Source: a bacterium (GTDB lineage Bacteria; Electryoneota; Electryoneia; Electryoneales; Electryoneaceae). From it: a stretch of 64,000 bases of DNA. The position numbers and the translations under genes are program-made. The notes below the pieces were generated by a model. That model was not told the origin of the DNA and searched no databases. It was given only the letters and a program-made list of their open reading frames with translations. The DNA lies in contig JAHLLH010000003.1 in the NCBI GenBank assembly GCA_020444265.1, forward strand, positions 62,001 through 126,000. The letters are read 5' to 3'. Below are positions 11,286 through 47,407 of this stretch, piece by piece (the stretch's first letter is position 1; the number at the start of each line of letters is the position of its first letter).

Positions 11286-11358
11286 GCGCCATTAGCTCAA
11301 TTGGTAGAGCAGCGGACTCTTAATCCGTTGGTTCGGGGTTCGAGTCCCTGATGGCGCA
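11286..11358 (+). tRNA. tRNA-Lys (anticodon CTT), island integration site
   Basis: A full cloverleaf can be drawn: acceptor stem GCGCCAT / ATGGCGC, D-arm TAGCTCAATTGGTAGAGCA, anticodon loop with CTT (CTCTTAA) and T-arm GGTTCGAGTCCC-like, discriminator A. The anticodon CTT reads AAG (lysine). The bases after the discriminator are CT, not CCA, so the 3' end must be added by tRNA nucleotidyltransferase. The 3' half, from the anticodon loop on, is the left copy of a 43-bp repeat whose right copy (47365-47407) is followed by CA, giving CCA. The 3' half seen here is therefore island-derived. Confidence 0.95.
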
Positions 11359-11359
11359 C
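11317..11359 (+). repeat. attL: 43-bp direct repeat, left copy
   Basis: It begins CTCTTAATCCGTTGG and ends TGATGGCGCAC, and is identical over 43 bases to 47365-47407. It spans the anticodon loop, T-arm, acceptor 3' strand and discriminator of the tRNA. It is the left product of site-specific recombination. Confidence 0.95.
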
Positions 11360-11440: not shown

Positions 11441-11504
11441 ACCTCTGTTTTCCGTATATTAGCTCTATACCTATGGCATCATTTACCAAGTGCGGAGGTG
11501 GGCT

Positions 11505-12548
11505 ATGGCGACCATCCAGAAGCGAGTCCTAAAGGACGGTACCATCAGGTATAGAGCTATCGTGCGGATCCGAGGCACCTCGCGCCAGGAGATGACGTTC
11601 GACCGGAAGACGGACGCCAAGAACTGGGCGAACAAGATCGAGACTGAAATCCGTGACGGCAAAGTCATCCTTACCTCTCAGGCCAGCCGTCACACCTTTG
11701 GCGAACTCATCGACAGGTATACCGAGTCCATCCTTCCCAGGAAAAAGAGCAGCAAGGATCAGAAGAGGCATCTGGATTGGTGGAAGACAGAACTCGGTGA
11801 TCGTTTCCTCTGCAATATCACTCCATCGCTCCTCGCAGAATACCGCGACTCTCTGCTGAAAGGTGGACGGTCGAAGTCCACCGCCAATCGCTATCTCGCT
11901 TCCCTCGGTCATCCCTTCACGATTGCCATCCGTGAGTGGGGGTGGGTCTCGGACCATCCTGTACATAAAATCTCCAAGCTACCCGAGCCACGCGGGCGTA
12001 TCCGGTTCCTGTCGAAGGAGGAGCTGAAGAAGCTCGTCGAAGCCTGCAAGAACCAGAAAAACCCTGACCTGTTGCACAGCGTGGTGCTGTCGCTGGCCAC
12101 CGGTGCCCGTCAAGCTGAAATCTTCGGACTCGAATGGGAACGTGTAGATCTCGAGAAGGGACGGCTCACATTCACCGAGACGAAGAACAAGGAGATAAGG
12201 ACGGTCCCCATACGCGGATATGCACTCGAGTTGATACGCGAGCGAGGGAGGGTCCAGAGGTTGGATACGGATCTGGTGTTCCCAGGCCGTAAGCTTCCGA
12301 CGAAACCGGTATCAGTCAGGGGAGCATTTGAGAATGCTCTGGAGGAAGCAGGTATAGAGGACTTTCGCTGGCATGATCTCCGCCATACCGCCGCTTCGTA
12401 CCTTGCGATGGACGGGGCCAATGCTTCAACTATCGCTGCGGTGCTGGGTCACAAAACGCTGGCGATGGTGAAACGATATGCTCATCTCAGCGAAGACAGC
12501 CTGGGACTGCAGATCGAGTCGATGAACAAGTCACTATTTGGAGGGTAG
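11505..12548 (+). CDS. int: Tyrosine recombinase/integrase of the island
   Basis: Site-specific recombinase that inserts and, with an excisionase, removes the island at tRNA-Lys. The 347-residue protein has an N-terminal arm-binding part (IQKRVLKDGTIRYRAIVR), a SAM-like core-binding domain (FGELIDRYTESILP) and a catalytic domain. Catalytic residues are visible as the Arg of ATGARQAEI, the Lys of ETKNKEIR, HDLRH (His and Arg), the His of LGHKTLAM and the nucleophilic Tyr in KRYAHLS. ATG 11505 sits seven bases after GGAGG; a GTG at 11490 is in frame but lacks a site. It lies 147 bases from the tRNA, the usual place. Confidence 0.95.
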   Translation: MATIQKRVLKDGTIRYRAIVRIRGTSRQEMTFDRKTDAKNWANKIETEIRDGKVILTSQASRHTFGELIDRYTESILPRKKSSKDQKRHLDWWKTELGDRFLCNITPSLLAEYRDSLLKGGRSKSTANRYLASLGHPFTIAIREWGWVSDHPVHKISKLPEPRGRIRFLSKEELKKLVEACKNQKNPDLLHSVVLSLATGARQAEIFGLEWERVDLEKGRLTFTETKNKEIRTVPIRGYALELIRERGRVQRLDTDLVFPGRKLPTKPVSVRGAFENALEEAGIEDFRWHDLRHTAASYLAMDGANASTIAAVLGHKTLAMVKRYAHLSEDSLGLQIESMNKSLFGG

Positions 12549-16302: not shown

Positions 16303-18417
16303 ATGGCTCAGATGGAACATATCGAGGCAATCGAAAAACGGCTATGGAGCGCGGCGGACACTCTGAGGGCAAACTCCAATTATGCTAGCAACGAGTATTT
16401 CCTTCCCGTCATGGGCCTTGTTTTCCTTCGACACGCATATAGCCGCTACCTCGGCGTCAAGAATAGTATCGAGGCCAACCTGCCTACACGTGGTGGGAAG
16501 GCACGCCCCCTGACGAAAGAGGACTTCTCCCAGAAGAGCGCCATCTACCTGCAGCACAAAGCCCAGTTCGACACTCTCGTCGCTTTACCCGACAGCGCTG
16601 ACCGAGCGAAAGCCATCATCGAAGCGATGGAGTCGATCGAGTCGGACTACGAGAGCCTCCGGGGTGTCCTGCCCAAGAACGAGTACCAGGAGCTCGACAA
16701 CGATGTCCTCGGCCAACTCCTGCGCACTCTCAACCCAGACGAGCTCAAGCGCGTCTCGGGGGATGTCTTCGGTCGCATCTACGAGTACTTCCTGACCCAG
16801 TTTGCCGACCAGAAGGCTCACGATGGCGGCGAGTTCTTCACACCGATCTCGCTCGTCTCCTTGATCGCCAATGTCATCGAGCCTGAAAGTGGAACGGTGT
16901 TGGATCCCGCGTGTGGTTCCGGTGGTATGTTCGTCCAGAGCGCCCGTGTGGTGGAGCGGAAAGACGAGAACCCGACCGAGAAGCTTACGTTCTACGGGCT
17001 CGAGAAGAACGCTACCACAATCCGCCTTGCGAAGATGAACCTCGCCGTACATGGTCTCGAAGGCGACATCCAGAAGGCGATCACCTATTACGAGGATCCG
17101 CACGAGCTTCTGAACAAGGCCGACTTCGTGATGGCCAACCCGCCCTTCAACGTCGACGAGATCGACGCTGACAAGGTGAAGCGGGATCCTCGTTTGCCCT
17201 TTGGTTTACCGGGTGTGAACAAGAAGGAGAAGGTCAGCAACGGCAACTATATCTGGATCAGCTACTTCTACAGCTACCTGAACGAGCAGGGCCGTGCTGG
17301 CTTCGTCATGTCCTCCCAGGCATCGAGCGCGGGGCGCGACGAGGCGAAGGTCCGCCAGAAGCTGGTCGAGACGGGTGATGTGGATGTCATGGTCGCCATA
17401 CGTTCGAACTTCTTCTACACCCGCACCGTCCCCTGCGAGCTCTGGTTCCTGAACCGTGGCAAACCCGAGAAGCACCGGGACAAGGTGTTGATGATCGATG
17501 CGCGGAACATCTACCGCAAGGTCACACGCAAGATCTACGACTTCAGTCCTGAGCAGGAGCAGAACATCCTCGCTATCGTCTGGCTCTACCGGGGCCAGAC
17601 AGAACGTTACCTCGACCTCGTCGCGGGGTACAGCCTGCGCATGCTGGATGAGGCGGCAGGCTGTTTCTCGTCGCATGAAGACAACGGCTCATCCATCGAA
17701 CCCCTGCCCGATTTCATCCACTCGCTGGCAAGCCAGCGGAGTGCCCTCGATCCGTTCCTGAAGACGCTTGATGAGGACGCAGCCCATACCGAACCACTGA
17801 AGGAGCTGGTCGAGGCGGCTGCGACGTTCAACGCGGACGTCCAGAAGTTTCAGGCAACGATCACCGAGGAACAGACCGCTTGGAAGAACCAGAAGACCAG
17901 CAACGGCGAGCTCAAGAAAGCCGTCGACCGACTGGCACCCCTTGCAGAAACCAGCCGCAACTTGGTGAAGCAATCCGATCTGCTCTACAAGCTCGTCAGT
18001 CGCATCATCGAGATCTGCGAGACCGAGCTCGACGCCCGCGACAGCCATGTGTGGGAAAACTCCGCCATTACTCGCGCCCGCAAGGCAGCCGACGTGGCAC
18101 GCGCACTGGCCGTCGAGCAGCTCAAGCAGGTCCGCTACTTCTGGCGGCAGGGCCACTGGCTTACCGAACGCTTCCCGGATGCAGAGCTGCGCGACGTAGA
18201 AGGCTTGGTCAAGCTGGTAGAAAGAGCCGAGATCGAAGCCAACGACTGGTCCCTCACCCCGGGCCGTTATGTCGGCGTTGCCCCCGAGGAAGAGGACGAG
18301 GACTTCGACTTTGAAGAAACCCTGCGCGAGATCCATGTCGAGCTGAACGACCTCAACGACGAAGCTACGCGTCTAGCCAAGACAATTAATAAGAACTTCA
18401 AGGAATTGGGGATATGA
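16303..18417 (+). CDS. hsdM: Type I restriction system DNA methyltransferase subunit HsdM
   Basis: N6-adenine methyltransferase of a type I restriction-modification complex. The protein (704 residues) has the N-terminal HsdM helical domain (ANSNYASNEYFLPVMGLVFL), the SAM motif DPACGSGGMF (201-210) and catalytic NPPF (279-282), followed by FGLPGVNKKEKVSNGNYIW and a long helical C-terminal region of about 250 residues. That tail makes it longer than classic HsdM (about 500). ATG 16303 follows GAGG; a TTG at 16261 is in frame but unlikely. It overlaps hsdS by 4 bases (ATGA), and is the first gene of the restriction operon. Confidence 0.95.
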   Translation: MAQMEHIEAIEKRLWSAADTLRANSNYASNEYFLPVMGLVFLRHAYSRYLGVKNSIEANLPTRGGKARPLTKEDFSQKSAIYLQHKAQFDTLVALPDSADRAKAIIEAMESIESDYESLRGVLPKNEYQELDNDVLGQLLRTLNPDELKRVSGDVFGRIYEYFLTQFADQKAHDGGEFFTPISLVSLIANVIEPESGTVLDPACGSGGMFVQSARVVERKDENPTEKLTFYGLEKNATTIRLAKMNLAVHGLEGDIQKAITYYEDPHELLNKADFVMANPPFNVDEIDADKVKRDPRLPFGLPGVNKKEKVSNGNYIWISYFYSYLNEQGRAGFVMSSQASSAGRDEAKVRQKLVETGDVDVMVAIRSNFFYTRTVPCELWFLNRGKPEKHRDKVLMIDARNIYRKVTRKIYDFSPEQEQNILAIVWLYRGQTERYLDLVAGYSLRMLDEAAGCFSSHEDNGSSIEPLPDFIHSLASQRSALDPFLKTLDEDAAHTEPLKELVEAAATFNADVQKFQATITEEQTAWKNQKTSNGELKKAVDRLAPLAETSRNLVKQSDLLYKLVSRIIEICETELDARDSHVWENSAITRARKAADVARALAVEQLKQVRYFWRQGHWLTERFPDAELRDVEGLVKLVERAEIEANDWSLTPGRYVGVAPEEEDEDFDFEETLREIHVELNDLNDEATRLAKTINKNFKELGI

Positions 18418-19652
18418 TGTCAATACCAGGCGGATACTCAAGACGGCCGATACCCGATGTTATTTTCTACCAGGAAGGACCTGGTTTAAGGAAATGGCAA
18501 TGGGCTGAAGCTGGAATGAAGGTTATTAATGTAACCAATATACTTCGTGATGGTTCTGGAACGGTAGATACAACAAACACAGACAAGTACATTTCTCTCC
18601 TAGAATTCGAGGAACGCTACAAGCATTTCGCGGTTGAATTAGATGATATCGTAGTTGCTAGCTCTGGAAATACCTATGGAAAAGTGGGTCGGATAACGGA
18701 AGAAAATTTACCAGTGATGATGAATACGAGTGTAATTCGTTTTCATAGTCACAATAAAGACATTCTTGATGATGAGTACCTATACGCTTTTCTTCGCTCG
18801 ACGGATTTTAAGAATCAAATCCATCAATTTGTGATCGGGGGAGCACAACCTAATTTTGGGCCTTCTCATATAAAGAAAATGACTATACCGATGCCAAGTA
18901 TTGATTTACAGAGGAGAATAGGAAGAACAATAGCAAACTATGACCGTCTAATAGCGAACAATAAACGGCGGATACAGTTGCTGGAGGAGTCGGCGCGGCT
19001 GCTCTACAAGGAATGGTTCGTCCACCTCCGCTTCCCCGGCCACGAACACACCCCCATCCAAGACGGCATCCCCGAAGGCTGGGAGAAGAAAAGTGCCATC
19101 GAGGTTATGGATGTTCTTAGTGGCGGAACACCGAAGACATCGAATCCGTCTTATTGGAATGGTGAAATACCATTCTATACCCCGAAAGACTCAACTGATT
19201 TCGCCTATGCTCAGGACACTGAAAAAACCATAACTGATGCTGGATTAAAGAACTGCAACAGCAAGCTCTATCCGAAGGATACCGTATTCATCACTGCGCG
19301 AGGAACGGTTGGCAAGGTTAACTTAGCTCAACGCCCTATGGCGATGAACCAGTCCTGCTACGCTCTTGTCGCTCATCCACCTCTTAGCCAGCAGATTCTC
19401 TATTTCGCCATGGTGGATGGAGTAGAACAATTACGCAGCCGAGCAGTCGGTGCGGTCTTCGATGCCATCATTCGAGATACGTTCAAGATGATTCCTTTCG
19501 TTGTTCCCGACACAAGGTTAATCTCTGCCTTCACAGAGCATGTATCACCCATTCTCGCGCAGATAGATACCTTGTCCACCCAAATTCGAAACCTCCGAGA
19601 TGCTCGCGATCTCCTCCTCCCCAAACTAATGAACGGAGAAATCCAGCCATGA
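18414..19652 (+). CDS. hsdS: Type I restriction system specificity subunit HsdS
   Basis: Chooses the DNA target of the type I complex through two target-recognition domains. The 412 residues read as TRD1 (about 1-165, ending in NFGPSHIKKMTIPMPS), a central helix with DRLIANNKRRIQLLEESARLLYKEWF trimmed here to its key part LLEESARLLYKEWF, TRD2 (about 225-370, with LSGGTPKTSNPSYW), and a final helix. The TRD1 coding part is visibly AT-rich while the central helix (about 18960-19085) is GC-rich, which shows domain exchange. It overlaps hsdM and the following ATPase gene by 4 bases each. Confidence 0.95.
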   Translation: MMSIPGGYSRRPIPDVIFYQEGPGLRKWQWAEAGMKVINVTNILRDGSGTVDTTNTDKYISLLEFEERYKHFAVELDDIVVASSGNTYGKVGRITEENLPVMMNTSVIRFHSHNKDILDDEYLYAFLRSTDFKNQIHQFVIGGAQPNFGPSHIKKMTIPMPSIDLQRRIGRTIANYDRLIANNKRRIQLLEESARLLYKEWFVHLRFPGHEHTPIQDGIPEGWEKKSAIEVMDVLSGGTPKTSNPSYWNGEIPFYTPKDSTDFAYAQDTEKTITDAGLKNCNSKLYPKDTVFITARGTVGKVNLAQRPMAMNQSCYALVAHPPLSQQILYFAMVDGVEQLRSRAVGAVFDAIIRDTFKMIPFVVPDTRLISAFTEHVSPILAQIDTLSTQIRNLRDARDLLLPKLMNGEIQP

Positions 19653-21697
19653 GTAGCATGAATACCAATCTTGCCGGTCGGCTACGCAATACCAATCTAC
19701 CCTACAGTCATGGACTGGCCCCTCTATTCGAAGCCGTCGTGAACTCCATTCACGCCATTGACGAGGCGAAACTATCCCTTGGCGATGGACGGATCACCGT
19801 CGAGATCGTCCGAGACAAGCAGGAATCGCTGAAGCCAGAAGAAAAGTCGCCCGGGCGTGAACCTACTCCCGACATCCTGAACTTCAAGATCACGGACAAT
19901 GGTATCGGTTTCGACGAAAAAAACATGACTTCGTTCATGACGCTGGACAGTGATCATAAGGCTCATATTGGTGGACGTGGAGTTGGGCGGTTATTGTGGC
20001 TGAAAGCCTTCGATAGTGTCAGCGTGGAAAGCGTTTACCTCGGGGATGATGGAGATTTGAAGCGTCGCAAGTTCCAGTTCAATGAGCAAACTGGAGTCTC
20101 CAGCGAAGATCCCAAATCTGCAGCAGAAGGAAGTGTCCGTTCGACTATCGTCCAGCTCTCCTACTTCAAAGCGAGATATCGCGATGCGTCCAGGAAACAA
20201 ACAGACATCATCGCCCGCAATATTCTTGAACACTGCTTGTGGTATTTCATCCGACCAGGTGGCGCGCCGCAGATCACTGTGCATGATGAGGAGAATACAA
20301 TCAGGTTGGATGACCTGTACGAGGAAGTGATACACGCCGACGCGACGAGCAAAACGATCACGATAAAAGGAGAAGAGTTTGATCTAACCCATGTTCGCCT
20401 CGAGTCTATGATTTCGAAGAAACACTATGTGGCTTATGGTGCTGACAGTCGACTGGTGCTTGAAGAACACCTCCGTGGTAAAATTCCCGGTTTATTCGGC
20501 GCACTGAAGGACGACGAGGGTGAATTCATCTATGCCTGCTATGTAGCATCCAAATTCCTGGATTCACATGTACGTTCTGAGCGAACTGAATTTGATATAC
20601 CTGAGGAATCTCTTGGGCTTCTTGAGGGAGTAGAACTGACCTGGCCTAAAATCCAAGAAGGGGTCAGGAAGGAAATAGTCGAGCACTTGCAAGACTATCT
20701 GGACGAGAATAAAAAGCAGGGCAAAGCCCGGGTTGAGGAATTTGTCGCCCAAAAAGCTCCACGCTACCGACCTATCTTAAAACACATACCAGAAGATGAT
20801 CTCGCGGTCGACCCGGAGATGTCCGACAAGGATCTGGACATGACTCTGCACCGGCACCTGTCTGATATCGAGAACAAGATGTTGGAAGAAGGCCACGATA
20901 TCATGCACCCAAAAAAGGAAGAGAACTTCCCTGATTACAAGCGTCGTGTAGCGGAATACCTGAAGCGTGCTGGGGAGTTGAAGCAGTCCGACCTGGCTAA
21001 CTATGTGTCTCATAGGAAGGTGATTCTTGATCTGTTGGCCGTCGCCGTGCAGCGAAAAGACGATGGTACGTACAACAGGGAAGACATCATTCACAATCTG
21101 ATCATGCCGATGGGTGAGGATTCGAATGGCGTGATGTTCGAAAGCACTAACCTGTGGATTATCGACGAGAGTCTGGCATTCCACGACTACCTGGCTTCTG
21201 ATAAGCAGATCAGGAAAATGCCAATATCAGATTCCGAAGATCAAAAGGAACCGGATATAGTCGCGTTGAACGTCTATGACAATCCAATGCTGGTTGCAGA
21301 GGGTGAACGGCTCCCGCTAGCGGCGATCCAAGTTGTAGAAATCAAGAAGCCGATGCGCAACGATGCCCAAGAAGGGGAGGAAAAAGACCCCATCGAACAA
21401 GCATTGGGCTACCTGAAGAGAATCCGCAAGGGTGAGGTGACAACGGCAACTGGCCGACCGATCCCACAATCTGATAGTATTCCGGGGTTCTGTTACGTCC
21501 TAGCGGATCTCACTCCCAAGGTTAAAGAACGGTGTCTAATTCATGACGCAATTCGTACCAGCGACGGGCTAGGGTATTTCTTCTATCACAAAGGTCTGAA
21601 TGCGTATGTGGAGATCATTTCCTTCGACCGGCTCGTGAATCTGGCGAAGGAGCGGAACCGTGCGTTTTTCGACAAGCTGGGGCTGCCAACGAATTAG
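19649..21697 (+). CDS. GHKL ATPase with C-terminal PD-(D/E)XK-like domain
   Basis: The 682-residue protein starts with a Hsp90/MutL/MORC-type ATP-binding fold: N-box LFEAVVNSIHAI (E28, N32), Mg/adenine motif ITDNGIGFDEKN (D83-G87) and the lid GGRGVGRLLWLKAF (108-121). A long middle part follows. Near the end, DIVALN (D536) and VVEIKKP (E563-x-K565) fit the PD-(D/E)XK nuclease pattern, followed by DPIEQALGYLKRI. MutL/MORC-like ATPases linked to restriction systems have been described; this looks like such a protein with its own nuclease-like end. It is translationally coupled to hsdS (ATGA), so it is probably part of the restriction operon. Role (extra restriction, DNA loading or alternative effector) is inferred. 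Confidence 0.8.
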   Translation: MSSMNTNLAGRLRNTNLPYSHGLAPLFEAVVNSIHAIDEAKLSLGDGRITVEIVRDKQESLKPEEKSPGREPTPDILNFKITDNGIGFDEKNMTSFMTLDSDHKAHIGGRGVGRLLWLKAFDSVSVESVYLGDDGDLKRRKFQFNEQTGVSSEDPKSAAEGSVRSTIVQLSYFKARYRDASRKQTDIIARNILEHCLWYFIRPGGAPQITVHDEENTIRLDDLYEEVIHADATSKTITIKGEEFDLTHVRLESMISKKHYVAYGADSRLVLEEHLRGKIPGLFGALKDDEGEFIYACYVASKFLDSHVRSERTEFDIPEESLGLLEGVELTWPKIQEGVRKEIVEHLQDYLDENKKQGKARVEEFVAQKAPRYRPILKHIPEDDLAVDPEMSDKDLDMTLHRHLSDIENKMLEEGHDIMHPKKEENFPDYKRRVAEYLKRAGELKQSDLANYVSHRKVILDLLAVAVQRKDDGTYNREDIIHNLIMPMGEDSNGVMFESTNLWIIDESLAFHDYLASDKQIRKMPISDSEDQKEPDIVALNVYDNPMLVAEGERLPLAAIQVVEIKKPMRNDAQEGEEKDPIEQALGYLKRIRKGEVTTATGRPIPQSDSIPGFCYVLADLTPKVKERCLIHDAIRTSDGLGYFFYHKGLNAYVEIISFDRLVNLAKERNRAFFDKLGLPTN

Positions 21698-21714
21698 GAT
21701 GGAAGGTACATAGA

Positions 21715-23859
21715 ATGAAAGAGCGTGCAACTCTAGAAGATGTATTCAATCGTAGCATCTTTCGTATCCCCGACTATCAGCGGGGGTACGCCTGGAAGGA
21801 GAAACAGTATAAGGATTTCTGGGAAGATCTGATCAACCTGCAGGATGGTCGCTCTCACTATACTGGTCTACTTACACTGAAGAGAATCGACCCAGATACC
21901 ATTAGCGAGGCAGATGACGAGTTCTGGCTCATCAACGACCAGCAGTATGAGATGTTTCACATCGTTGATGGTCAGCAGCGTCTGACAACCTTCATCGTTT
22001 TCATCAAAGCACTTCTCGATTTCTACATGGAGCTCGAGAAGAATCGTGATAAAGAGCCGGATGAGGTGTACGTCAAGGGGACAGTCACCGCGAGCGCTAT
22101 CACCGAACGTTTCCTCTATAAGTACAAACCACCGCAGAACCTGTTTCGGACATATAAGTTCGGCTACGTGAAAGACACACCGAGTGATGAGTTTTTCCGG
22201 TACGACGTGCTTGATGAGGAGGGCCCCGGAACTGTTCAGAAGTCGTTCTACACCCTGAATCTCAAGAATGCGCTGACCTTCTTCAAGAAGCAGATCGAAG
22301 CCCTTTACGAGACCGAAGGCGAAGATGGTCTCAAGAACATTTACAGGAAGCTGACCTCAAATCTCCTCTTCAACATCTATACAATTCACGATGAATTTGA
22401 TGAGTTTGTGACATTCGAGACGATGAACAACCGGGGAAAGAAGCTATCGGACCTCGAACTACTGAAGAACCGCCTGATCTACCTGACCACTCTCTATGGG
22501 TGTGACCAGCTCAAGGTAGCTGAACTGCGAAAACTCCGGGAACGGATCAACGACACGTGGAAAGAGGTCTACTACCAGCTAGGTAGAAACCCAAGCAAAC
22601 CTCTGAATGACGACGACTTCCTGCGCGCACACTGGATCATGTATTTCACCTACTCGAGGAAAACCGGTCAAGACTACATTCAGTTCCTGCTCGACAAGTA
22701 CTTCTCTCCACAACAGGTTCACGAGAAAGTTGTGATCCAGGTCGAGCTTGAGGAGGCTGAAGAGCAGCGATCAGGGTTAGGTTTTGACGATGATGACGAT
22801 TTTTCTGAACAGGCTCTGGAGAATTCCGTAGAAAGGGAGGTTTCCAATCTTACCCCCGAGAACATCAGGGACTATGTGAACAGCCTTAAAGAATCTGCGC
22901 AACACTGGTTCTGTGCACACTACCCACGATTGGCCAATTCACTTCCCTCTGAAGAAATCGAAGCCATTGAGAAGCTGAACCGAATCGGGATGGGGTATTT
23001 CCCGCCCCTGGTGATGTCGATCTTGAAGAATGTGTCAGACTCTGCGAAACGCGTGAAAGCCATTCAAAGCATCGAGCGATTCATCTTCCTTGCTTTCCGA
23101 ATCGGCGGGGCACGTGGAAACTATCGAAGCAGCGAATACTATGGAGAAGCCCGGAAGCTGGATTTGGGCAAATCGACAATTGAATCCATCATTGACAGCT
23201 TCGAACCCAACCTCAGCTACCTGGTCAGTGAAGAGGGCATCATCAATGCCACGTACTTCTACACGTATCTGCAGAAGAAGTTCAAGGATAAAGAGGGGTA
23301 CTATGCATGGTACGGATTACGGTATTTCCTCTATGAATATGAGCTAGACCTCCTGAGCGACAGCATCCAGCAGAAAGTCACTTGGGACTCGCTACTGAAG
23401 ACGCCACGGGAATATCTCTCCATCGAGCATATCTGCCCTCAGAGTATGCCTGAGCATTGGCAAAAAGTGTTCTCGGGGGTTCCAGAGGACCACTACCACT
23501 TGTACTACGGTTCACTCGGCAACCTGCTCTTGCTCTCCTCTTCTATCAACTCCTCTCTACAGAACGACAGTTACGAGAGCAAGCTCCACCCAAAATTTGA
23601 CGGCGATGGTAGGCGAAAGAGGACTGGCTATTCCGACGGTTCTCATTCGGAGATCGAAGTCGCCAGGTTGTACAGCCAGTGGGGCCCGGAAGAAATTCGG
23701 GATCGTGGCATGCGGCTCCTGTCATTCATGGAGCGTCGGTGGGGTTTCCGCTTCCGCGACGAGGAGACGAAAGAATCGTTTCTGTTTCAACCTACTGAAC
23801 AGGGCGAGGAGGATGAGGTAGGCCGTCCTGAAAGTACAAGCGGCATGGAGAATGCCTGA
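21715..23859 (+). CDS. GmrSD-like protein (DUF262 plus DUF1524)
   Basis: The 714-residue protein joins two domains known from the type IV restriction enzyme GmrSD. The N-terminal DUF262 domain has FRIPDYQRGYAWKEKQY and IVDGQQRLTTF (84-93, ParB-like nucleotide-handling motif), and NRGKKLSDLELLKN further on. The C-terminal DUF1524 HNH-type nuclease has SIEHICPQS (E571, H572) and GSLGNLLLLSSSIN. GmrSD enzymes cut DNA with glucosylated or otherwise modified bases. Lying between hsdS and hsdR, with a 17-base gap before it and a 1-base overlap after it (TGATG), it would complement type I restriction, which modified phage DNA can escape. Confidence 0.88.
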   Translation: MKERATLEDVFNRSIFRIPDYQRGYAWKEKQYKDFWEDLINLQDGRSHYTGLLTLKRIDPDTISEADDEFWLINDQQYEMFHIVDGQQRLTTFIVFIKALLDFYMELEKNRDKEPDEVYVKGTVTASAITERFLYKYKPPQNLFRTYKFGYVKDTPSDEFFRYDVLDEEGPGTVQKSFYTLNLKNALTFFKKQIEALYETEGEDGLKNIYRKLTSNLLFNIYTIHDEFDEFVTFETMNNRGKKLSDLELLKNRLIYLTTLYGCDQLKVAELRKLRERINDTWKEVYYQLGRNPSKPLNDDDFLRAHWIMYFTYSRKTGQDYIQFLLDKYFSPQQVHEKVVIQVELEEAEEQRSGLGFDDDDDFSEQALENSVEREVSNLTPENIRDYVNSLKESAQHWFCAHYPRLANSLPSEEIEAIEKLNRIGMGYFPPLVMSILKNVSDSAKRVKAIQSIERFIFLAFRIGGARGNYRSSEYYGEARKLDLGKSTIESIIDSFEPNLSYLVSEEGIINATYFYTYLQKKFKDKEGYYAWYGLRYFLYEYELDLLSDSIQQKVTWDSLLKTPREYLSIEHICPQSMPEHWQKVFSGVPEDHYHLYYGSLGNLLLLSSSINSSLQNDSYESKLHPKFDGDGRRKRTGYSDGSHSEIEVARLYSQWGPEEIRDRGMRLLSFMERRWGFRFRDEETKESFLFQPTEQGEEDEVGRPESTSGMENA

Positions 23860-26800
23860 TGCCCGCCTACACTGAAGACACACTCGTCCAGCAGACGACA
23901 GCCGACTACCTGGAGCAGGAGCTCGGCTGGGAGTCGGTGTATGCTTACAACCACGAGGACTTCGGGCCGGACAGCTTGCTGGGGCGGGAGTCGGACCGTG
24001 AGGTTGTGCTGACTCGTACTCTCCGTGCCAAGATCGAGGTGCTGAACCCTGGACTGCCTGCGACTGCCTATGAAGACGCTGTCCGCAAGATTGTGACCGT
24101 ATCTGCGTCACAAACCCTGGCTGCTACCAACCGCGAGAAGTACCAGCTGATCAAGGATGGCGTTCAGGTTTCCTTCCGTAACGCTGAGGGTGAGCGTGTG
24201 CGTGAACGGCTCCGGGTCTTTGATTTCAATGACGCGCTGAACAACGATTTCCTCTGCGTGCGTGAGCTGTGGATGAGAGGTGACCTCTATCGCCGCCGTG
24301 CGGACATCGTCGGGTTCGTGAATGGCCTCCCCCTGCTCTTCATGGAGCTGAAGAACATCAACCGGGATATCCGTGCAGCCCACCATCAGATCTTCCATGA
24401 CTACATGGACACGGTAACCCATTTCTTCCATCACAACGCAGTGATCGTGCTCGCGAACGGTGTAGATGCTAAACTCGGGTCGCTCACCAGTCGCTACGAG
24501 CATTTCCACGAGTGGAAACGTCTCGATGAGGAGGATCCGGGTGCCGTGGACATGGAGACGTTGCTGAAGGGTATCTGCGACAAGCGCAACTTCATGGATC
24601 TGATCGAGAACTTCATTCTCTTCGATGAGTCTGCGGGTGAACCTAGAAAGATCCTTGCCCGCAACCACCAGTACCTCGGTGTCAATCGCGCTGTTGAGGC
24701 TGTGAAGAATCGTGAAGACAGGAAGGGAAAGCTAGGCGTATTCTGGCATACCCAGGGCGCAGGGAAAAGCTATTCGATGGTCATGTTCACGAGAAAGGTA
24801 CACCGCAAGATCGGCGGGAATTTCACCTTCCTCGTCCTGACGGACCGCGATGACCTGGACACACAGATATACAAGACTTTCGCCGGATGCGGCGTGGTCG
24901 ACAATGATCGAGATCCTTGCCGGGCGTCCAGCGGCGAGCATCTCAGCACACTTCTTGCCCAGCACAAGTCACACGTCTTCTCCCTGATTCAGAAGTTCAA
25001 TCAGAATGTGGCACCAGGAGAGAGCTACTCGCAGCGTAACGACATCATCGTCATCACCGATGAAGCCCATCGCACACAGTACGGTACGCTGGCGCTCAAC
25101 ATGCGCAACGCTCTCCCCAACGCCAGCTATATAGGGTTTACGGGGACGCCGCTGTTCAAGGACGACGAGATCACGCGCCGTGTCTTCGGTGATTATATCT
25201 CAACCTATGACTTCCAGCGTGCGGTCGAAGACAAAGCAACTGTCCCCCTCTACTACGATGCTCGCGGCGACAAACTCGGTGTGGCGATCGGCGACCTGAA
25301 CGATCGGATCGCAGAGAAGCTCGAGGAAATCGAAACGGATGATATTGATGTCGAGCAGCGGTTGGAGAAAGAACTAAAGCGCGACTATCACATTATCACA
25401 GCCGAGAAACGTCTTGACCAGGTTGCCCGAGATTTTGTGCGTCACTACTCGACATCTTGGGAGACCGGCAAGGCCATGGTGATCTGCATCGACAAGATCA
25501 CGTGTGTTCGCATGTACAACCTGGTTGCCAAGTATTGGGCTGAAAGAATTGCTGCCCTAGAGGCCGAGCTTCCCTCTGCGACGGATGAGCAGGACGAACT
25601 GTACCGGTTGCGACAGCTGGCATGGATGCGGCAAACACGTTCAGCTGTGGTGGTCAGCGAAGAACAGGGTGAGGTTGACAAGTTCCGCAAGTGGGATCTG
25701 GACATCACACCGCACCGGCGCCTGATCAAAGAAGGCATCGACCTGCCAGAAGAGATGCGACAGCAGCCGCAGTTCCAGAACATGCAGCGTTTGTCGCTGG
25801 ATGAAGCATTCAAGGCTGAGGAGCACCCCTTCCGTATCGCGATTGTCTGCGCGATGTGGTTGACGGGGTTTGATGTACCCAGCCTCGCAACCCTCTACTT
25901 GGACAAACCCCTCAAAGCGCACACACTGATGCAGGCGATTGCACGTGCGAACCGCGTGAACGAGGGGAAGAACAACGGGATGATCGTCGACTACTGCGGC
26001 ATCCTGAAGAACCTTCGGAAGGCGCTGGCCACGTTTGCCGGAGAAGGCGCTGGTGGACATGGCGGTGATGATGAGATCGAACCAGCCAAGCCCGATGAAG
26101 AGCTGCTGGCTGACTTGGAAGAGGCTATCAGCCTGGCACGGACCTTCCTCTCGGACCGCAGCACATCGCTTGATGACATCATCCAACAAACAGGGTTCGC
26201 TCGCAACGCTGCGATCCTTGCAGCGAAAGAAGCGGCAAACGAGAATGACGAGACTCGTAAACGCTTCGAGATCATGTGCAGGGCTGTGTTCACGAAATTC
26301 AAAGCCTGCATCACCGTGGATGGAGTGAACGCCTTTCGTCAGGACTACGAGGCAATCAACATTGTCTATAAGAGTCTCCAACGCGATCGTGAACAGGCTG
26401 ACATCACCGATATCATCCGCCAACTGCACCGAGTTGTAGACGACGCGATCGATACGCACGCTGATGGTGCGGACGAAGATTCGGAAGTCTATGACATCAG
26501 CAAGATTGACTTCGACCGATTGCGTCAGGAGTTCGAGCGCAGCACTTCCAAACGTACTACGGTGCAAAACCTCAAGACTGCTGTTGAACAACGTCTCCAG
26601 AAATTGCTGCAGCAGAATCCCTTGCGCACCAATTTCCAGGCTCACTACGAAGAGATTGTCGAAGAGTACAATCGCGAGAAGGACCGCGCCACCATCGAAA
26701 AGACCTTCGAGGCACTCCTCCTGTTTGTGGACGAGATGGGGCAGGAGGAGAGTCGCGCCCTCCGTGAGGGACTCAACGAGGAATCCCTAGCCCTGTTCGA

Positions 26801-27098
26801 CCTGCTGAAGAAGCCTGACTTGTCATCCAAAGAGATCAAGCAAATAAAAGGGGTCGCTGTAGAACTTCTTGAGAACCTGAAAGCAGAAAAACTGCGTGTC
26901 GATCACTGGCGCGATAAGGAGGCAACAAGGGACGCAGTTCGGCTTACCATCCACGATTATCTGTGGAGCGATGGAACAGGGCTACCCGAGGTATTCTCCG
27001 AAGAGGATATTGAGGATAAAACCGATGCTGTTTTCGCACATGTCTTCCGGGTTTACCCAACCGTACCATCGCCATATTATACAAGTCTGGCGTCTTGA
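23859..27098 (+). CDS. hsdR: Type I restriction endonuclease subunit HsdR
   Basis: Motor and nuclease subunit of the type I complex. The 1079-residue protein has an N-terminal PD-(D/E)XK nuclease (RRADIVGFVNGLPLLFMELKN region, D149, E163, K165), then a superfamily 2 helicase: Walker A TQGAGKS (298-304), the DEAH-type ITDEAHRTQYG, GFTGTPL, and motif VI-like MQAIARANRVNEGKNNG. A helical C-terminal domain binds the methyltransferase. Length is normal. In most type I loci hsdR is adjacent to hsdM or hsdS; here two nuclease-type genes are inserted between. Its start overlaps the GmrSD-like gene, so all five genes form one coupled operon. Confidence 0.96.
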   Translation: MPAYTEDTLVQQTTADYLEQELGWESVYAYNHEDFGPDSLLGRESDREVVLTRTLRAKIEVLNPGLPATAYEDAVRKIVTVSASQTLAATNREKYQLIKDGVQVSFRNAEGERVRERLRVFDFNDALNNDFLCVRELWMRGDLYRRRADIVGFVNGLPLLFMELKNINRDIRAAHHQIFHDYMDTVTHFFHHNAVIVLANGVDAKLGSLTSRYEHFHEWKRLDEEDPGAVDMETLLKGICDKRNFMDLIENFILFDESAGEPRKILARNHQYLGVNRAVEAVKNREDRKGKLGVFWHTQGAGKSYSMVMFTRKVHRKIGGNFTFLVLTDRDDLDTQIYKTFAGCGVVDNDRDPCRASSGEHLSTLLAQHKSHVFSLIQKFNQNVAPGESYSQRNDIIVITDEAHRTQYGTLALNMRNALPNASYIGFTGTPLFKDDEITRRVFGDYISTYDFQRAVEDKATVPLYYDARGDKLGVAIGDLNDRIAEKLEEIETDDIDVEQRLEKELKRDYHIITAEKRLDQVARDFVRHYSTSWETGKAMVICIDKITCVRMYNLVAKYWAERIAALEAELPSATDEQDELYRLRQLAWMRQTRSAVVVSEEQGEVDKFRKWDLDITPHRRLIKEGIDLPEEMRQQPQFQNMQRLSLDEAFKAEEHPFRIAIVCAMWLTGFDVPSLATLYLDKPLKAHTLMQAIARANRVNEGKNNGMIVDYCGILKNLRKALATFAGEGAGGHGGDDEIEPAKPDEELLADLEEAISLARTFLSDRSTSLDDIIQQTGFARNAAILAAKEAANENDETRKRFEIMCRAVFTKFKACITVDGVNAFRQDYEAINIVYKSLQRDREQADITDIIRQLHRVVDDAIDTHADGADEDSEVYDISKIDFDRLRQEFERSTSKRTTVQNLKTAVEQRLQKLLQQNPLRTNFQAHYEEIVEEYNREKDRATIEKTFEALLLFVDEMGQEESRALREGLNEESLALFDLLKKPDLSSKEIKQIKGVAVELLENLKAEKLRVDHWRDKEATRDAVRLTIHDYLWSDGTGLPEVFSEEDIEDKTDAVFAHVFRVYPTVPSPYYTSLAS

Positions 27099-27198: not shown

Positions 27199-30100
27199 AT
27201 GGATGAGCCGGTCCGTGTGCGAAAGATCAACGATCCGACAAAGGTTGGCGTTTTGACGGGCCGTGAACAGATGCGTGGTCCAGGTAGGATACTCAACGTT
27301 TTATACACCAACGGCAGTACGGCATGGGTACCGGAGGATCAACTTGAGGTAATCGAGAGCTTTAGGTTATCCCCGCTGGACATGCTTGATAAGGGCCAAC
27401 TAGGAAGCCCCGTAGACTTGAGGCGGACATTGGCTCATGCAAAAATATCAGGCAAATTGACCGATGTCATTTATAGCATGGAAGCGACCAGAACGGATTT
27501 CTATGCGTATCAGTTCAAACCCGTTTTAAAGCTACTAGAATCTCCCTCCAATGGCCTCCTGATCGCTGACGAAGTTGGTTTGGGTAAAACGATCGAAGCT
27601 GGGCTGATCTGGACAGAGCTACGTTCGCGATTTGACATGCATCGTCTGGTGGTTCTCTGTCCATCAGCACTGCGCGAGAAATGGGAAGACGAGCTCAAGT
27701 CGAAAATGGGGGTTCGTGCAACACTTTGTGATGTTCGCGATGTCCTTAAGACCCTCACGAGCCTCGATTCTCAGGCAGAAGGGTTTGCACTGATTTGCAG
27801 CATGCAAGGTTTGCGGCCACCCAAAAAATGGGAAGACAATGAAGATGACCGATCTGCACGAGCTATGCTTGCCCGCTTCCTCAGATCTCATGAGAACGAT
27901 GAACGATTGATTGATCTGCTTGTCATTGATGAAGCGCATCACTTGCGGAATCCTGAGACAAAGACGAACGAACTGGGTGAGTTATTCAAGGCTGTTTCAG
28001 AGTATGCGGTCTTTCTTACAGCGACCCCAATTCACAACAAGAACAATGATTTATTCTCTCTTTTGCACCTACTGGACCCAGACACATTTACTCGTATGGA
28101 TGTCCTTGAAACAGTTTTACGAGCAAATGCACCATTGGTTCGTGCTAGAGATATTCTGCTGAATCGAGAATCCAACCTGGCAGACGTAATTGAGCAGATC
28201 GAGATCGCAAAATCTCATCCACTTCTCTACGACAATCGTCAGTTGGCATTCATTGAGGCAGAACTCGCGAAGGAAGGGTTACTGCAAAGTAAAGAGGGGC
28301 GAGGGCGACTTGCATATCGACTAGAAACTGTGAACCTGCTTGCCCATGCCATCACTCGTACACGAAAGCGCGAAGTCAAAGAGTGGCGAGTTGTGCGTGA
28401 GGTGATTAGTGAACTCGTACCGATTTCAGACCCAGTAGAGAGAGAGTTCTATGATCGTGTCACAGGCATTGTTGCTGAGTACGCCGCACGGAGCGATGCG
28501 AATGAGGCATTCCTTCTTTCACAGCCTCAAAGACAAATGACGAGTAGTATGGCTGCAGCACTACACGCATGGCAGACTACAGGGGATATGCTGGAAGAAG
28601 TAGAGCTAGAAGACAATTACAAGAAAGCAAAGAAAAAGATTGGACCTCTCGTTAGGGAGGTGGTTGAACGTACGCGAGATGTTGATTTGACGTTGCTGGA
28701 ACAGAATGATAGTAAATTCAAAAAACTAAATGATATACTATCAAATTTTGTGAGTGAATACCCCGAAGAAAAGGTGGTTCTGTTCTCGTCATTTAGGGAG
28801 ACTCTGCAATACCTGAAGCGGCGCCTTGAGGAATCCTCCCTTAGGACCATCCTTCTGATGGGTGGGCAACGTGAGACAAAGGCAGATGTCATCCAGCGAT
28901 TCCAAAAGTCGCCTGGTGGAACTGTTTTGTTGACTTCAGAGGTAGGTGGCGAGGGTGTCGATATTCAGTTCTGTAGGGTGATGATCAATTATGATTTACC
29001 GTGGAATCCGATGCGGCTTGAGCAACGTATAGGTCGTATCGATAGACTCGGACAGATGGCCGATAGCATCCAGATATGGAACATCATGTACGATGGTACC
29101 ATTGACGCCAAGATATACACTCGACTCTACAACAAACTGGACTTGGTCAAAAATGCCCTAGGGGATTTTGAAGCAATCCTTGGGGAGGAGATTAGAAAAC
29201 TCACCATTGAGCTTCTTTCTGGTAACCTTACGCCAGAACAACAAGATGAGCGTGTAGAGCAAACAGCACAAGCTCTTGAAAATATAAGAATTCAGGAGCA
29301 AAAGCTGGAGGAAAATGCTTCAAGTTTGATAGCCTATGGCAATTACATCCTCGACAGGATCAAAGATGCGAAGCACAATCATCGCTGGATTAGCAAGAAT
29401 GACCTGAAGGTTTACGTTACCGATTTCTTGAAGCTGAAGTATCCTGGATGCACGATTCAACAACTAGCAAAAGGTAGCGATGTCTATGAATTGTCACTCT
29501 CGCCAGATGCAAGATTTGATCTTGAGGAGTTCGTGCGTTCGAGGCGATCATCATTTGTAACTCGTCTCACAGGGGTCAATACAAGTCCACCAAAGTGCCG
29601 ATTCGACAACCACGTTACAGAATATATCATAGGTTCCGTCGAGATCATTTCCCAGTTTCACCCCCTAGTACAAATGATCAGTCAGCAGATTGCTGAATCT
29701 GACGAGCAACTGACACCAGCCATAGCTGCAAAGGTTGCTTGGGTCGCAGGACTGAAAGTCAAACCCGGTGTCTACGTGGTTGCGATAGAACGATGGTCAT
29801 TTAAGGCACTCCAGAGCATCGAGAAGCTGGCTTATTCGGGCGCTAGCTATGACAAACCCCAATCAATCCTTACTTCAGCTGAGGTTGAAGGCCTTGTCGC
29901 CACTGTTTTCGAACGTGGCCAAAATTGGCTTGAGGTAGTAGCCGATATCGAGGTAGGGAGGGCATATGATATCGCGAATGAGATTGTCTTCTTGGCATTG
30001 CAAAAAAATTACGAAGAGTACAAGGAGGAGCTAGATGCCAAGAATCAGGACAGGGCAAGCGTCCAGCTGAAGATGTTGGATAAACATATGCAGGAACAGG

Positions 30101-30291
30101 AAAGGAAGCTTCTGGAGATTAAGCAGCGGTTGATTGACAAGGGCAAGGATTCGCTTGTGAAAGCGACTCAGGGTAGAATAGAAAAATTGAAGGACAGAGT
30201 CGAACAGCAACGTACCCGAATCGAGCGTGGAAAAGAGATGAGGACAGACCATGAAGAAATTGCGATTGCTGTCATTTCTGTGGAGAAATAA
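27199..30291 (+). CDS. SNF2/RapA-like helicase
   Basis: A 1030-residue superfamily 2 ATPase of the SNF2 kind. Residues 1-50 are a small strand-rich part; then Walker A IADEVGLGKTIEAG (DEVGLGKT, 124-131), VIDEAHHLRN (DEAH 244-247), FLTATPIHN and, in the second lobe, LTSEVGGEGVDIQ and RLEQRIGRIDRLGQ. The last 350 residues are unlike RapA, with a C-terminal coiled coil (LDAKNQDRASVQLKMLDKHM). SNF2 ATPases move along DNA or remodel protein-DNA complexes, and several phage-defence systems use them. It begins 100 bases after hsdR and overlaps the Hsp70-like gene by 41 bases, so the two probably act together. Confidence 0.88.
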   Translation: MDEPVRVRKINDPTKVGVLTGREQMRGPGRILNVLYTNGSTAWVPEDQLEVIESFRLSPLDMLDKGQLGSPVDLRRTLAHAKISGKLTDVIYSMEATRTDFYAYQFKPVLKLLESPSNGLLIADEVGLGKTIEAGLIWTELRSRFDMHRLVVLCPSALREKWEDELKSKMGVRATLCDVRDVLKTLTSLDSQAEGFALICSMQGLRPPKKWEDNEDDRSARAMLARFLRSHENDERLIDLLVIDEAHHLRNPETKTNELGELFKAVSEYAVFLTATPIHNKNNDLFSLLHLLDPDTFTRMDVLETVLRANAPLVRARDILLNRESNLADVIEQIEIAKSHPLLYDNRQLAFIEAELAKEGLLQSKEGRGRLAYRLETVNLLAHAITRTRKREVKEWRVVREVISELVPISDPVEREFYDRVTGIVAEYAARSDANEAFLLSQPQRQMTSSMAAALHAWQTTGDMLEEVELEDNYKKAKKKIGPLVREVVERTRDVDLTLLEQNDSKFKKLNDILSNFVSEYPEEKVVLFSSFRETLQYLKRRLEESSLRTILLMGGQRETKADVIQRFQKSPGGTVLLTSEVGGEGVDIQFCRVMINYDLPWNPMRLEQRIGRIDRLGQMADSIQIWNIMYDGTIDAKIYTRLYNKLDLVKNALGDFEAILGEEIRKLTIELLSGNLTPEQQDERVEQTAQALENIRIQEQKLEENASSLIAYGNYILDRIKDAKHNHRWISKNDLKVYVTDFLKLKYPGCTIQQLAKGSDVYELSLSPDARFDLEEFVRSRRSSFVTRLTGVNTSPPKCRFDNHVTEYIIGSVEIISQFHPLVQMISQQIAESDEQLTPAIAAKVAWVAGLKVKPGVYVVAIERWSFKALQSIEKLAYSGASYDKPQSILTSAEVEGLVATVFERGQNWLEVVADIEVGRAYDIANEIVFLALQKNYEEYKEELDAKNQDRASVQLKMLDKHMQEQERKLLEIKQRLIDKGKDSLVKATQGRIEKLKDRVEQQRTRIERGKEMRTDHEEIAIAVISVEK

Positions 30292-31705
30292 GACTGAAGA
30301 TTCGTCCGAAGGCAATGGGGAAAGGAATGAGACTATGGCTACAACAGGCGGTGGTCGAGTCGAACTCGTAATCGGACTAGACTTTGGAACCTCTTCATCG
30401 AAAGTGGTTGTGCGTGCACCTGATCTCCAAGGCAGTCCAGCCTACCCTATGGACTTCGGCGATTTCGGGCATCCCGCCATGCCGCAACTTCTCCCGACTT
30501 CCCTCTGGGTAGATAGTAGTGGTATTTGCTCTCTTCGGAGTAAAGCTGGTAGCAGAATGTATCAAGATCTAAAGATAAAACTCCTAAGTGAGATGAACCC
30601 AAATCTTGCCGTTTCAATGAGCGTAGAGGGAGGGGATAACTTCGATGAAGCCAGGGCAGCGGCATATCTCGGATTGGTTCTTCAGAAGGTCAGGACGTGG
30701 TTTCTCATCACACACGAGAAACTAGTGGCGAGATTTGATAAGATTGTCTGGTCTTTTAATCTTGGAGTTCCATCTGCGAGCATGGGTGAAAACGCGGAGA
30801 ATGATCGGTTCTTCCGAGTAGGGAATGCAGCCTGGTTACTCTCGTTTGCCAAAGATGAGATTACGATCATCGGGGCATCCAAGTGCCTGGCAGACGTGGC
30901 TGGGAAAGCGAACAAACAACCTTTTAAAAAGTATGAGGCTGAAGAATGTTACTTCCAAATAATCCCTGAAATCGCTGGGGGAGCGATCAGCTATGCCATG
31001 TCTGAACTGCGCACAGAGGGTTTGCATCTTATGCTGGATTTTGGGGCATCGACTGTTGATGCCTGCAGTTTCATTCTCCGCAATCGTGAAGGAACTGATC
31101 GCTATTCACTCATGGTGACTGATGTGCAACCTTTGGGTGTTGCTGAAATGCACCGTAGGCAACTTGCAGCGCTTGAATTGGCTGAGATGGAAAATCCTGA
31201 GGACTCTGTTTACTATCAAAAGGTCGATCCACTCGATCCGTTCCCTGAAGAGCGGGATAACGTCGAAGAACCGTTTATTAGGGAAGTTGCTCAGGTAAAC
31301 GAACAGTTTCGTGATGAATGTTCTACTCATTTAAGGCGTGTGTTGGAAAAGACGAGAACGGAAAGAGCCCCTAACGAGGACGAATGGACTACCAAACCAT
31401 TGCCAGTGCTCCTGATTGGAGGTGGTAGTGTTGTTGACCAGTATGAAAGAGTTGTTGACGAGTTGGACTACTGGTTTCGGAACGAGCACATCCGCAACCA
31501 ACATGGGATGAAGCTGCTTCCCATGCCAGTTCAAAGTACCCCTGACGGTGAAGAGGTAGCATACATGCGACTGGCAGTAGCTTATGGACTTAGCTACCGG
31601 GAGTTCGATATAGGCGAAATTACTCCAGCTGATAGGATAGCGAACATGATAAAAGAGCCGCCCGCTGAGATCATGGGAACATACATAGGCTCGGAACAAA
31701 CCTGA
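30251..31705 (+). CDS. Hsp70/actin-fold ATPase
   Basis: The 484-residue protein has the sugar kinase/Hsp70/actin signatures: phosphate-1 IGLDFGTSSSKVVV (D44), phosphate-2 LMLDFGASTVDACSF (D263) and an adenosine-binding VLLIGGGSVVDQYE. The usual Hsp70 substrate-binding beta domain is absent, so it is a stand-alone nucleotide-binding domain. It may act as an ATP-driven partner or chaperone for the SNF2 helicase encoded just before. ATG 30251 (AGGA seven bases upstream) lies inside the helicase gene; ATG 30335 with AAAGGA is an alternative that avoids the overlap. The pair resembles a two-gene defence module; no named system is claimed. Confidence 0.8.
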   Translation: MKKLRLLSFLWRNKTEDSSEGNGERNETMATTGGGRVELVIGLDFGTSSSKVVVRAPDLQGSPAYPMDFGDFGHPAMPQLLPTSLWVDSSGICSLRSKAGSRMYQDLKIKLLSEMNPNLAVSMSVEGGDNFDEARAAAYLGLVLQKVRTWFLITHEKLVARFDKIVWSFNLGVPSASMGENAENDRFFRVGNAAWLLSFAKDEITIIGASKCLADVAGKANKQPFKKYEAEECYFQIIPEIAGGAISYAMSELRTEGLHLMLDFGASTVDACSFILRNREGTDRYSLMVTDVQPLGVAEMHRRQLAALELAEMENPEDSVYYQKVDPLDPFPEERDNVEEPFIREVAQVNEQFRDECSTHLRRVLEKTRTERAPNEDEWTTKPLPVLLIGGGSVVDQYERVVDELDYWFRNEHIRNQHGMKLLPMPVQSTPDGEEVAYMRLAVAYGLSYREFDIGEITPADRIANMIKEPPAEIMGTYIGSEQT

Positions 31706-33334: not shown

Positions 33335-34462
33335 ATGAAGAATAAGCTGATCGGCGTGATCGTGGTGGTCATCGTGACTGCGGCGGCGTTGGTATTGATC
33401 CTTCGGAAACCTGGCGCGGGTGATCAGGACATTACTGTCGGTGCACTCCTGCCCCTTACAGGACAGGGAGCCGCCTATGGAGAGGCCGCAAAGAGCGGCA
33501 TGGACCTGGCCTTGCAGCAGGTGAACTCCAGCGGAGGCATCGATGGAAAAACGCTACGCATCATCTATGAGGATACGCAAGGCGACCCCAAAGTCGGGGT
33601 GTCCGCGTTCCAGAAACTGGTCACGGTCAATCACGTCCCGGCGGTTCTAGGCGACCTGCTCAGCTCTGTAACGTTGTCGGTTGCCCCCATCGCGAATAGG
33701 CGTGAAGTAGTTCTCTTATCTCCGGCCTCGTCCTCACCGAAGCTTACTGAGGCGGGCGCATATGTATTCAGGAATTGCCCCTCCGATGTCTATGAGGGTA
33801 CAGTGATGGCAGACTATGCCTCCAAAACCCTGGGACTGAAGCGCGTTGCGATCTTGCGTATCAACAATGAATACGGCGTCGGGATAGGGTCAGTTTTCAA
33901 GAAGGAGTTTGTCGAGAACGGCGGAACAATCGTGGCCGAGGAGTCCTATGCTGAAGACGCCACAGATTTCCGCACCCAAATTGCGAAGGTCGCGGCTCAG
34001 AACCCCCAGGCTATCTACCTGCTTGGGTACAAGCAAATGGGCTACATCTTACGGCAAGCGAGCGAACTTGGCCTGAAGACCCAGTTCTTGAGCACCGTCA
34101 CATTTGAAGACCCCGAAATCCTGAAGCTTGCCGGAGATGCTGCAGATGGGGTCATCTACTCTGCAAGCAAGTTCAGTCCTGACAACGCAGACGAAACGGT
34201 CCAGCGTTTCGTGGACGCGTATGAGGCCGCTTACCAGTCCGAACCGAACATATTTGCAGGCTTGAGCTATGATGCGGCGCAAATCCTCGTCATTGCCATG
34301 CGTGATGGCGGCACAAGTGGCCCGCAGATTCGGGAAGCACTGCACAGGGTGAAGGATTATCCGGGGGTAGCTGGCGAGACAGCCATTGACGAAAATGGTG
34401 ATGCAGTGCTTACCCCGGTTCTCAAGACGGTAAAGGACGGCGAGTTCGTCTTCCTCAAGTAG
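33335..34462 (+). CDS. Branched-chain amino-acid-type ABC transporter, substrate-binding protein
   Basis: Periplasmic or membrane-tethered binding protein of the LivJ/receptor-ligand-binding type (375 residues). A hydrophobic N-terminal anchor (IGVIVVVIVTAAALVLIL) has no lipobox Cys, and is followed by ITVGALLPLTGQGAAYGEAA, GMDLALQQVNSSGGIDGKTL and IYEDTQGDPK, all classic for the family. A strong AGGAGG site precedes ATG 33335. It is the first gene of an eight-gene operon. The ligand is uncertain: this family also carries amides, urea and aromatic compounds, and the odd neighbours hint at a special substrate. Confidence 0.92.
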   Translation: MKNKLIGVIVVVIVTAAALVLILRKPGAGDQDITVGALLPLTGQGAAYGEAAKSGMDLALQQVNSSGGIDGKTLRIIYEDTQGDPKVGVSAFQKLVTVNHVPAVLGDLLSSVTLSVAPIANRREVVLLSPASSSPKLTEAGAYVFRNCPSDVYEGTVMADYASKTLGLKRVAILRINNEYGVGIGSVFKKEFVENGGTIVAEESYAEDATDFRTQIAKVAAQNPQAIYLLGYKQMGYILRQASELGLKTQFLSTVTFEDPEILKLAGDAADGVIYSASKFSPDNADETVQRFVDAYEAAYQSEPNIFAGLSYDAAQILVIAMRDGGTSGPQIREALHRVKDYPGVAGETAIDENGDAVLTPVLKTVKDGEFVFLK

Positions 34463-34477
34463 ACAAGGTCAGTCAGC

Positions 34478-36642: not shown

Positions 36643-36665
36643 TCGAAATAGGGAGGGCCTGAACT

Positions 36666-47335: not shown

Positions 47336-47364
47336 ATTTATCGTAAGTTATTGTAAACACAGGT

Positions 47365-47407
47365 CTCTTAATCCGTTGGTTCGGGGTTCGAGTCCCTGAT
47401 GGCGCAC
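47365..47407 (+). repeat. attR: 43-bp direct repeat, right copy
   Basis: Identical over 43 bases to 11317-11359. It is the displaced 3' half of the host tRNA-Lys gene. It continues with CA, so the original tRNA gene encoded its CCA end; the left copy continues with T. It is not a complete tRNA. Confidence 0.95.

Follow-up and report, generated by a model that had tools for sequence, protein, structure and literature searches.

Defence genes embedded in type I restriction operons

Type I restriction–modification operons have been shown to carry additional defence genes in the interval between hsdS, which encodes the specificity subunit, and hsdR, which encodes the restriction subunit. In Vibrio cholerae, the GmrSD-like system TgvAB is embedded between these two genes on VPI-2; the protection against phage that it provides is unchanged by the K172A substitution in HsdR, indicating that restriction by HsdR is not needed, and it was suggested by the authors that type I and GmrSD systems complement each other (PMC11411939). 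In Campylobacter jejuni, the DUF262 protein RloF is encoded by an R-linked open reading frame (ORF) in the same interval, and type I domains are given as the commonest defence neighbours of GmrSD homologues (PMC4619093). DarTG2 has been found between hsdS and hsdR in a type I operon of EPEC, and the authors suggest that the site may be a hotspot where defence systems gather (PMC12255303). A GmrSD enzyme embedded in a BREX operon has likewise been found to act alone, without pglX (PMC12373910).

The locus described here lies in a 64,000-nucleotide stretch of bacterial DNA, referred to as the window, and resembles TgvAB in having a GmrSD-type gene between hsdS and hsdR, in the DUF262 and DUF1524 motifs and in the five-gene operon. 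TgvAB, however, consists of two DUF262 proteins that are mutually required, whereas this operon contains a single DUF262 gene, encoding one complete GmrSD-type protein, together with an unrelated GHKL nuclease. The likeness to RloF and other R-linked ORFs is one of position, in that the same slot holds a DUF262 gene, and a GHKL partner is not reported in the sections of that source seen here. DarTG2 occupies the same defence-cargo slot, but there the cargo is a toxin–antitoxin pair. We consider it probable that the locus is a type I restriction–modification operon with two autonomous defence genes in its hsdS–hsdR cargo slot, carried on a 36-kb island in a tRNA-Lys gene. What is new is the exact pairing of the GHKL and GmrSD genes, which was seen in no other locus examined; each of the parts, and this kind of slot, were already known.

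Organization of the operon and its type I core

The operon consists of five genes on the forward strand: hsdM (16303–18417; 704 aa), encoding the N6-adenine methyltransferase subunit, hsdS (18414–19652; 412 aa), a gene for a paraMORC3-like GHKL-S5 ATPase with a C-terminal PD-(D/E)XK nuclease (19649–21697; 682 aa), a gene for a single-chain GmrSD-type (DUF262+DUF1524) restriction enzyme (21715–23859; 714 aa) and hsdR (23859–27098; 1079 aa), whose product joins a PD-(D/E)XK nuclease to an SF2 motor. The hsdM/hsdS and hsdS/GHKL junctions are 4-base overlaps, the GHKL and GmrSD genes are separated by a 17-base gap, and the GmrSD gene overlaps hsdR by 1 base. These genes, their coordinates and their junctions are exactly as given in the initial annotation, the gene identities proposed there were borne out by Pfam, NCBIfam, motifs and fold, and the translational coupling is right as well. 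Since both are correct, shared expression is likely, and the overlaps suggest that the five genes are likely to lie on one transcript; scans for promoters and terminators returned hits that were no more numerous than in shuffled sequence. None of the five encoded proteins is truncated, and HsdM, HsdR, GmrSD and GHKL all have intact catalytic motifs. Third-position GC is 0.77 in hsdM, 0.47 in hsdS, 0.57 in the GHKL gene, 0.63 in the GmrSD gene and 0.67 in hsdR, a spread (0.47–0.77) that is expected of a mosaic, with the caveat that hsdS genes vary in any case.

The three hsd genes carry the methylase, target-recognition and nuclease-motor domains that define a type I system at the gene level. 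HsdM matches N6_Mtase (1.3e-78) and HsdM_N (2.8e-13) in Pfam and MTase_I (4.5e-267) in PADLOC, and contains the motifs DPACGSG and NPPF; HsdS matches Methylase_S in two stretches (1.1e-31). HsdR matches HSDR_N (2e-33) and SWI2_SNF2 (7e-71) in Pfam and TIGR00348 in NCBIfam (487.9 bits against a cut-off of 284.55), and has the motifs ELK, QGAGKS and DEAH.

The GHKL ATPase/nuclease

The first of the two cargo genes encodes a protein that is only weakly recognized as a GHKL ATPase by Pfam (HATPase_c, E 0.0031, below the cut-off). Its ATPase motifs (E28xxxN32, D83xG85xG87 and G111xG113) are nevertheless invariant in 18 close members and in a 31-sequence set that extends to 25% identity, and residues 1–357 of the structural model match Hsp90, MORC2/MORC3 and SMCHD1 with Z of about 16–17. 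At the C-terminus, D536, E564-x-K566 and Q584-xxx-Y588 are invariant in all 31 sequences. The arrangement D-ExK-QxxxY is the pattern of RecB-type PD-(D/E)XK nucleases. Use of the 31 sequences gave a model with a mean pLDDT of 80.9, compared with 70.3 for a first model that was poor in the C-terminus; the nuclease half found no fold match of its own, the Foldseek and VIA lists being filled by the GHKL-S5 half. The motifs and fold thus identify the protein as a GHKL+S5 (MORC/Hsp90-like) ATPase with a C-terminal nuclease, the nuclease half being assigned by motif. A search of PDB sequences with the protein matched only immunoglobulin chains, which were taken as chance.

This architecture, with the GHKL-S5 half seen by fold and the nuclease half by motifs, is that of paraMORC3, a group of GHKL-S5 proteins with a C-terminal nuclease of the RE fold that has both restriction–modification-linked and standalone members (PMC2292703). 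The two are likened by description: the GHKL+S5 module and the C-terminal nuclease are common to both, but the paraMORC3 nuclease is characterized by E-D-ExK and that of the window by D-ExK-QxxxY. A second comparison is with VcSduA, a type I-D Shedu protein in which a GHKL ATPase is fused to a C-terminal PD-(D/E)XK nuclease; it adjoins the GmrSD-like GrwAB and provides phage defence independently of it (PMC12137116). VcSduA differs in carrying DUF4263 (SduA_C), which was matched by none of the 26 scanned members of the window's GHKL family. A Shedu identity for the nuclease was rejected for this reason: PF14082 (DUF4263/SduA_C) was absent from the genome itself (E 10), from 19 close family members (E 10) and from seven distant ones (E 1), whereas a true Shedu protein scored 1.3e-25.

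The family is rare and patchy. A peptide-pattern search of the genome collection recovered 25 relatives, and at E 1e-20 relatives were present in 6 of 345 genomes of one phylum and 6 of 369 of another, counts that include the genomes used as centres; among 39 genomes of the window's own phylum, none was found outside the window. For many relatives the neighbourhood lacks type I genes; one stand-alone copy, on a plasmid of Acinetobacter, is flanked by IS elements, and another is near CBASS-like genes. At one further locus (L005:4275-8265), the gene directly after a solo GHKL-nuclease gene encodes another GHKL ATPase (608 aa).

The GmrSD-type enzyme

The fourth gene encodes what is, from its domains and motifs, a complete single-chain GmrSD-type enzyme. 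It matches GmrSD_N (9.2e-31) and GmrSD_C (2.6e-14) in Pfam, and the DUF262 motifs QR, DGQQR and FxxxN and the DUF1524 motif EH..N..N, the H..N..N of which is typical of this class, are intact and common to three relatives. Its best PADLOC model is HEC-06. A relative that is about 40% identical is the DUF262 gene between pglX and pglZ in an Acinetobacter BREX operon, and BrxU, BREX-embedded GmrSD and HEC-06 are among its nearest described counterparts, except that its host system is type I and not BREX or Hma. Relatives that stand alone came from a single genome of the sampled Desulfobulbus phylum (L068) and from a plasmid of a cyanobacterium, the latter at 54% identity. No close relative was found in viral contigs, nor was there a copy outside the window among the 39 genomes of its own phylum.

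The hsdS–hsdR interval as a cargo slot

The interval was surveyed in an hsdM-anchored sample made up of 395 genomes of the Desulfobulbus phylum and the genomes of loci already collected. It was found that 19 of the 21 operons with a related hsdM, and with hsdM and hsdR both on the contig, carry additional genes, from widely differing families, between hsdM/hsdS and hsdR; the slot is empty in the other two (L047 and L053). The cargo includes SLFN_AlbA_2 helicase-like, RhuM, AAA_14/DUF4143, DUF1016/YhcG nuclease, Bro-N and DEAD helicase families. A pair consisting of an AAA ATPase and a subtilase occupies the slot in three operons and a GHKL gene in two, the latter share being biased upward since both operons were found through GHKL. 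A different GmrS-type cargo, a divergent GmrSD_N fused to SLFN_AlbA_2, is present within the same hsdM group (L055:5311-7563), and a plasmid of E. coli has RecQ and DprA in the slot. The hsdS–hsdR gap of this hsdM group is a cargo slot.

A four-sequence profile of the window's GmrSD subfamily, which missed the divergent DUF262 of L055, found no member in any other hsdM or GHKL locus examined, and DUF262 was absent from the ten neighbours of GHKL genes that were scanned with Pfam. Within the loci examined, the GHKL and GmrSD pair is one more cargo combination and not a conserved unit. The case adds a double cargo to the growing evidence that additional defence genes land in the hsdS–hsdR gap of type I operons.

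Association of the GHKL gene with type I operons

The link between GHKL and type I genes is the sole non-trivial part of the association. The GHKL gene directly follows hsdS with the same 4-base overlap in the window and in four other loci (L003, L004, L006 and L007), and lies within 12 bases of hsdS in two more (L014 and L104); it follows hsdS even where hsdR is upstream. In a tree that was built from 34 GHKL proteins and analysed by a quick method, type I linkage requires 5 changes, compared with a mean of 10.1 after shuffling, and none of 500 shuffles was as low. The lineage that includes the window protein spans several phyla; seven of its members are linked to type I genes and two stand alone. 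A position directly behind hsdS is the tendency both here and in other lineages. Well-supported branches force at least three changes of linkage, which means that the link arose, or was lost, several times, although it still clusters. GHKL genes also occur beside unrelated hsd families (hsdM 27% in L002; hsdR 28% in L023), and on a Vibrio fluvialis plasmid (L031:6622-10016) the order is hsdR-AAA-hsdM-hsdS-Shedu-GHKL, with the Shedu gene between hsdS and GHKL. Taken from gene order and the tree, this pattern fits repeated capture of the GHKL gene at a favoured site, though it is equally compatible with a looser tie in function. A MORC-like ATPase-nuclease has thus returned to type I operons in several phyla.

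Proposed mechanism and alternative explanations

The type I, GmrSD and GHKL activities are probably independent of one another, and the activity and targets of each enzyme would probably be as follows. HsdM2S would methylate the host's own sites and, with HsdR, cut unmethylated incoming DNA. In the GmrSD-type enzyme, the DUF262 NTPase/sensor domain would recognize base modifications in phage DNA, most probably those of cytosine, and the DUF1524 His-Me domain would cut; as its substrate would be DNA with modified bases, it would cover phages that escape HsdMSR by such modification. For the GHKL protein, ATP-driven dimerisation via its GHKL-S5 clamp is probable and would license its own C-terminal PD-(D/E)XK nuclease.

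The initial annotation had read the five genes as a single integrated system, with joint action of its type I, GmrSD and GHKL components. In favour of such a system are the tight translational coupling of all five genes and the complementary DNA targets known for the type I and GmrSD families. A single transcript is indeed reasonable given the overlaps, and in that sense so is joint control, but the layered function, and any physical or regulatory interplay, found no support. That annotation had proposed a search for the five-gene order in other genomes and had held that its absence would refute the reading; the order was sought and found nowhere else among the loci examined. The slot is modular, both cargo genes have stand-alone relatives, and published embedded GmrSD-like genes work without HsdR restriction or without the surrounding BREX system, all of which makes joint action very improbable. 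Scarcely more probable is that the GHKL-nuclease and GmrSD genes form a two-gene system that was inserted as a unit, like TgvAB or GrwAB. Two-protein GmrSD-like systems are known and the two genes are adjacent, with 17 bases between them; the pairing, however, occurs in no other locus examined, both genes have solo relatives, and TgvAB and GrwAB each pair one DUF262 protein with another, with no GHKL protein as partner.

One observation speaks for the annotation's view that these are 'not simple neighbours': GHKL is repeatedly found beside hsdS across phyla. Its position after hsdS with the same overlap, together with the clustering on the tree, means that the tie of GHKL to HsdMS may go beyond position. 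The GHKL protein could be a true accessory effector that engages HsdMS, or DNA marked by a stalled HsdR, and supplies an additional nuclease output, the GmrSD enzyme being independent cargo. The adjacency to hsdS (overlapping or within 12 bases) and the clustering of type I-linked proteins from several phyla speak for this, but many relatives lack nearby type I genes, some lie between IS elements, the gene occurs with unrelated hsd families, and a Shedu gene intervenes after hsdS in L031; we regard such an effector as unlikely, and give a looser functional tie of GHKL to type I operons the same low probability. Slightly more doubtful again is a stronger form, in which GHKL-S5-PD-(D/E)XK proteins would be recurrent, functionally coupled partners of HsdMS, forming a 'type I + MORC-like nuclease' subtype in several phyla; recognition or translocation by the type I enzyme would set off the ATP-clamp nuclease, and in the present operon GmrSD would add a further layer. 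Were GHKL to depend on HsdMS, type I restriction would be tied to the world of MORC/MutL ATPases, a link hitherto based mainly on gene neighbourhood. Two autonomous cargo genes in a type I operon remain the reading that we prefer.

The probable genomic island and the genes after hsdR

The operon is most likely part of the cargo of a 36-kb integrated island in tRNA-Lys. A tRNA-Lys(CTT) gene (11286–11359, forward strand; ARAGORN) is directly followed by a gene for a tyrosine integrase (11490–12548, forward strand), an ORF whose product is about 30% identical to integrase-like ORFs in other loci. The last 46 bases of the tRNA gene (11314–11359) form the left attachment-like repeat and recur on the forward strand at 47362–47407 as the right one, a direct repeat in which 45 of the 46 bases agree with the 3′ end of tRNA-Lys, and it is this repeat, with the adjoining integrase, that points to an island. 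In a search for an empty site, relatives were found to keep the left-flank gene, without tRNA-Lys beside it.

The range given in the initial annotation ends at hsdR, but two further genes continue on the same strand. The first (27199–30291; 1030 aa), 100 bases after hsdR, encodes an SNF2-type helicase of the DrmD/RapA kind, with a PADLOC DrmD match of 7.5e-258 and an NCBIfam DrmD score of 432 bits, less than the equivalog cut-off of 610. The second (30335–31705; 456 aa, with an alternative open start at 30251) encodes an Hsp70/actin-like ATPase with the motifs DFGTS, DFGAS and IGGGS, which matched no Pfam family. DISARM combines DrmD with drmMI/MII, drmA, drmB and drmC, and in none of the eight genes scanned, from hsdM to 33013, was drmA, drmB or drmC the best PADLOC match, which does not fit a DISARM system. 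The helicase and Hsp70-like pair recurs apart from type I genes, on plasmids of Aminobacter, Sphingobium, Leptolyngbya and Shinella, and was therefore treated as a separate module; the Aminobacter copy is close to Hachiman and nuclease genes, and the pair is a candidate defence pair. Further along the island (33335–40534), ORFs named from their translations alone make up what looks like a complete ABC transporter set for branched-chain amino acids (a substrate binder, two permeases and two ATPases), which is interleaved with unrelated ORFs and is unusual for a defence island.
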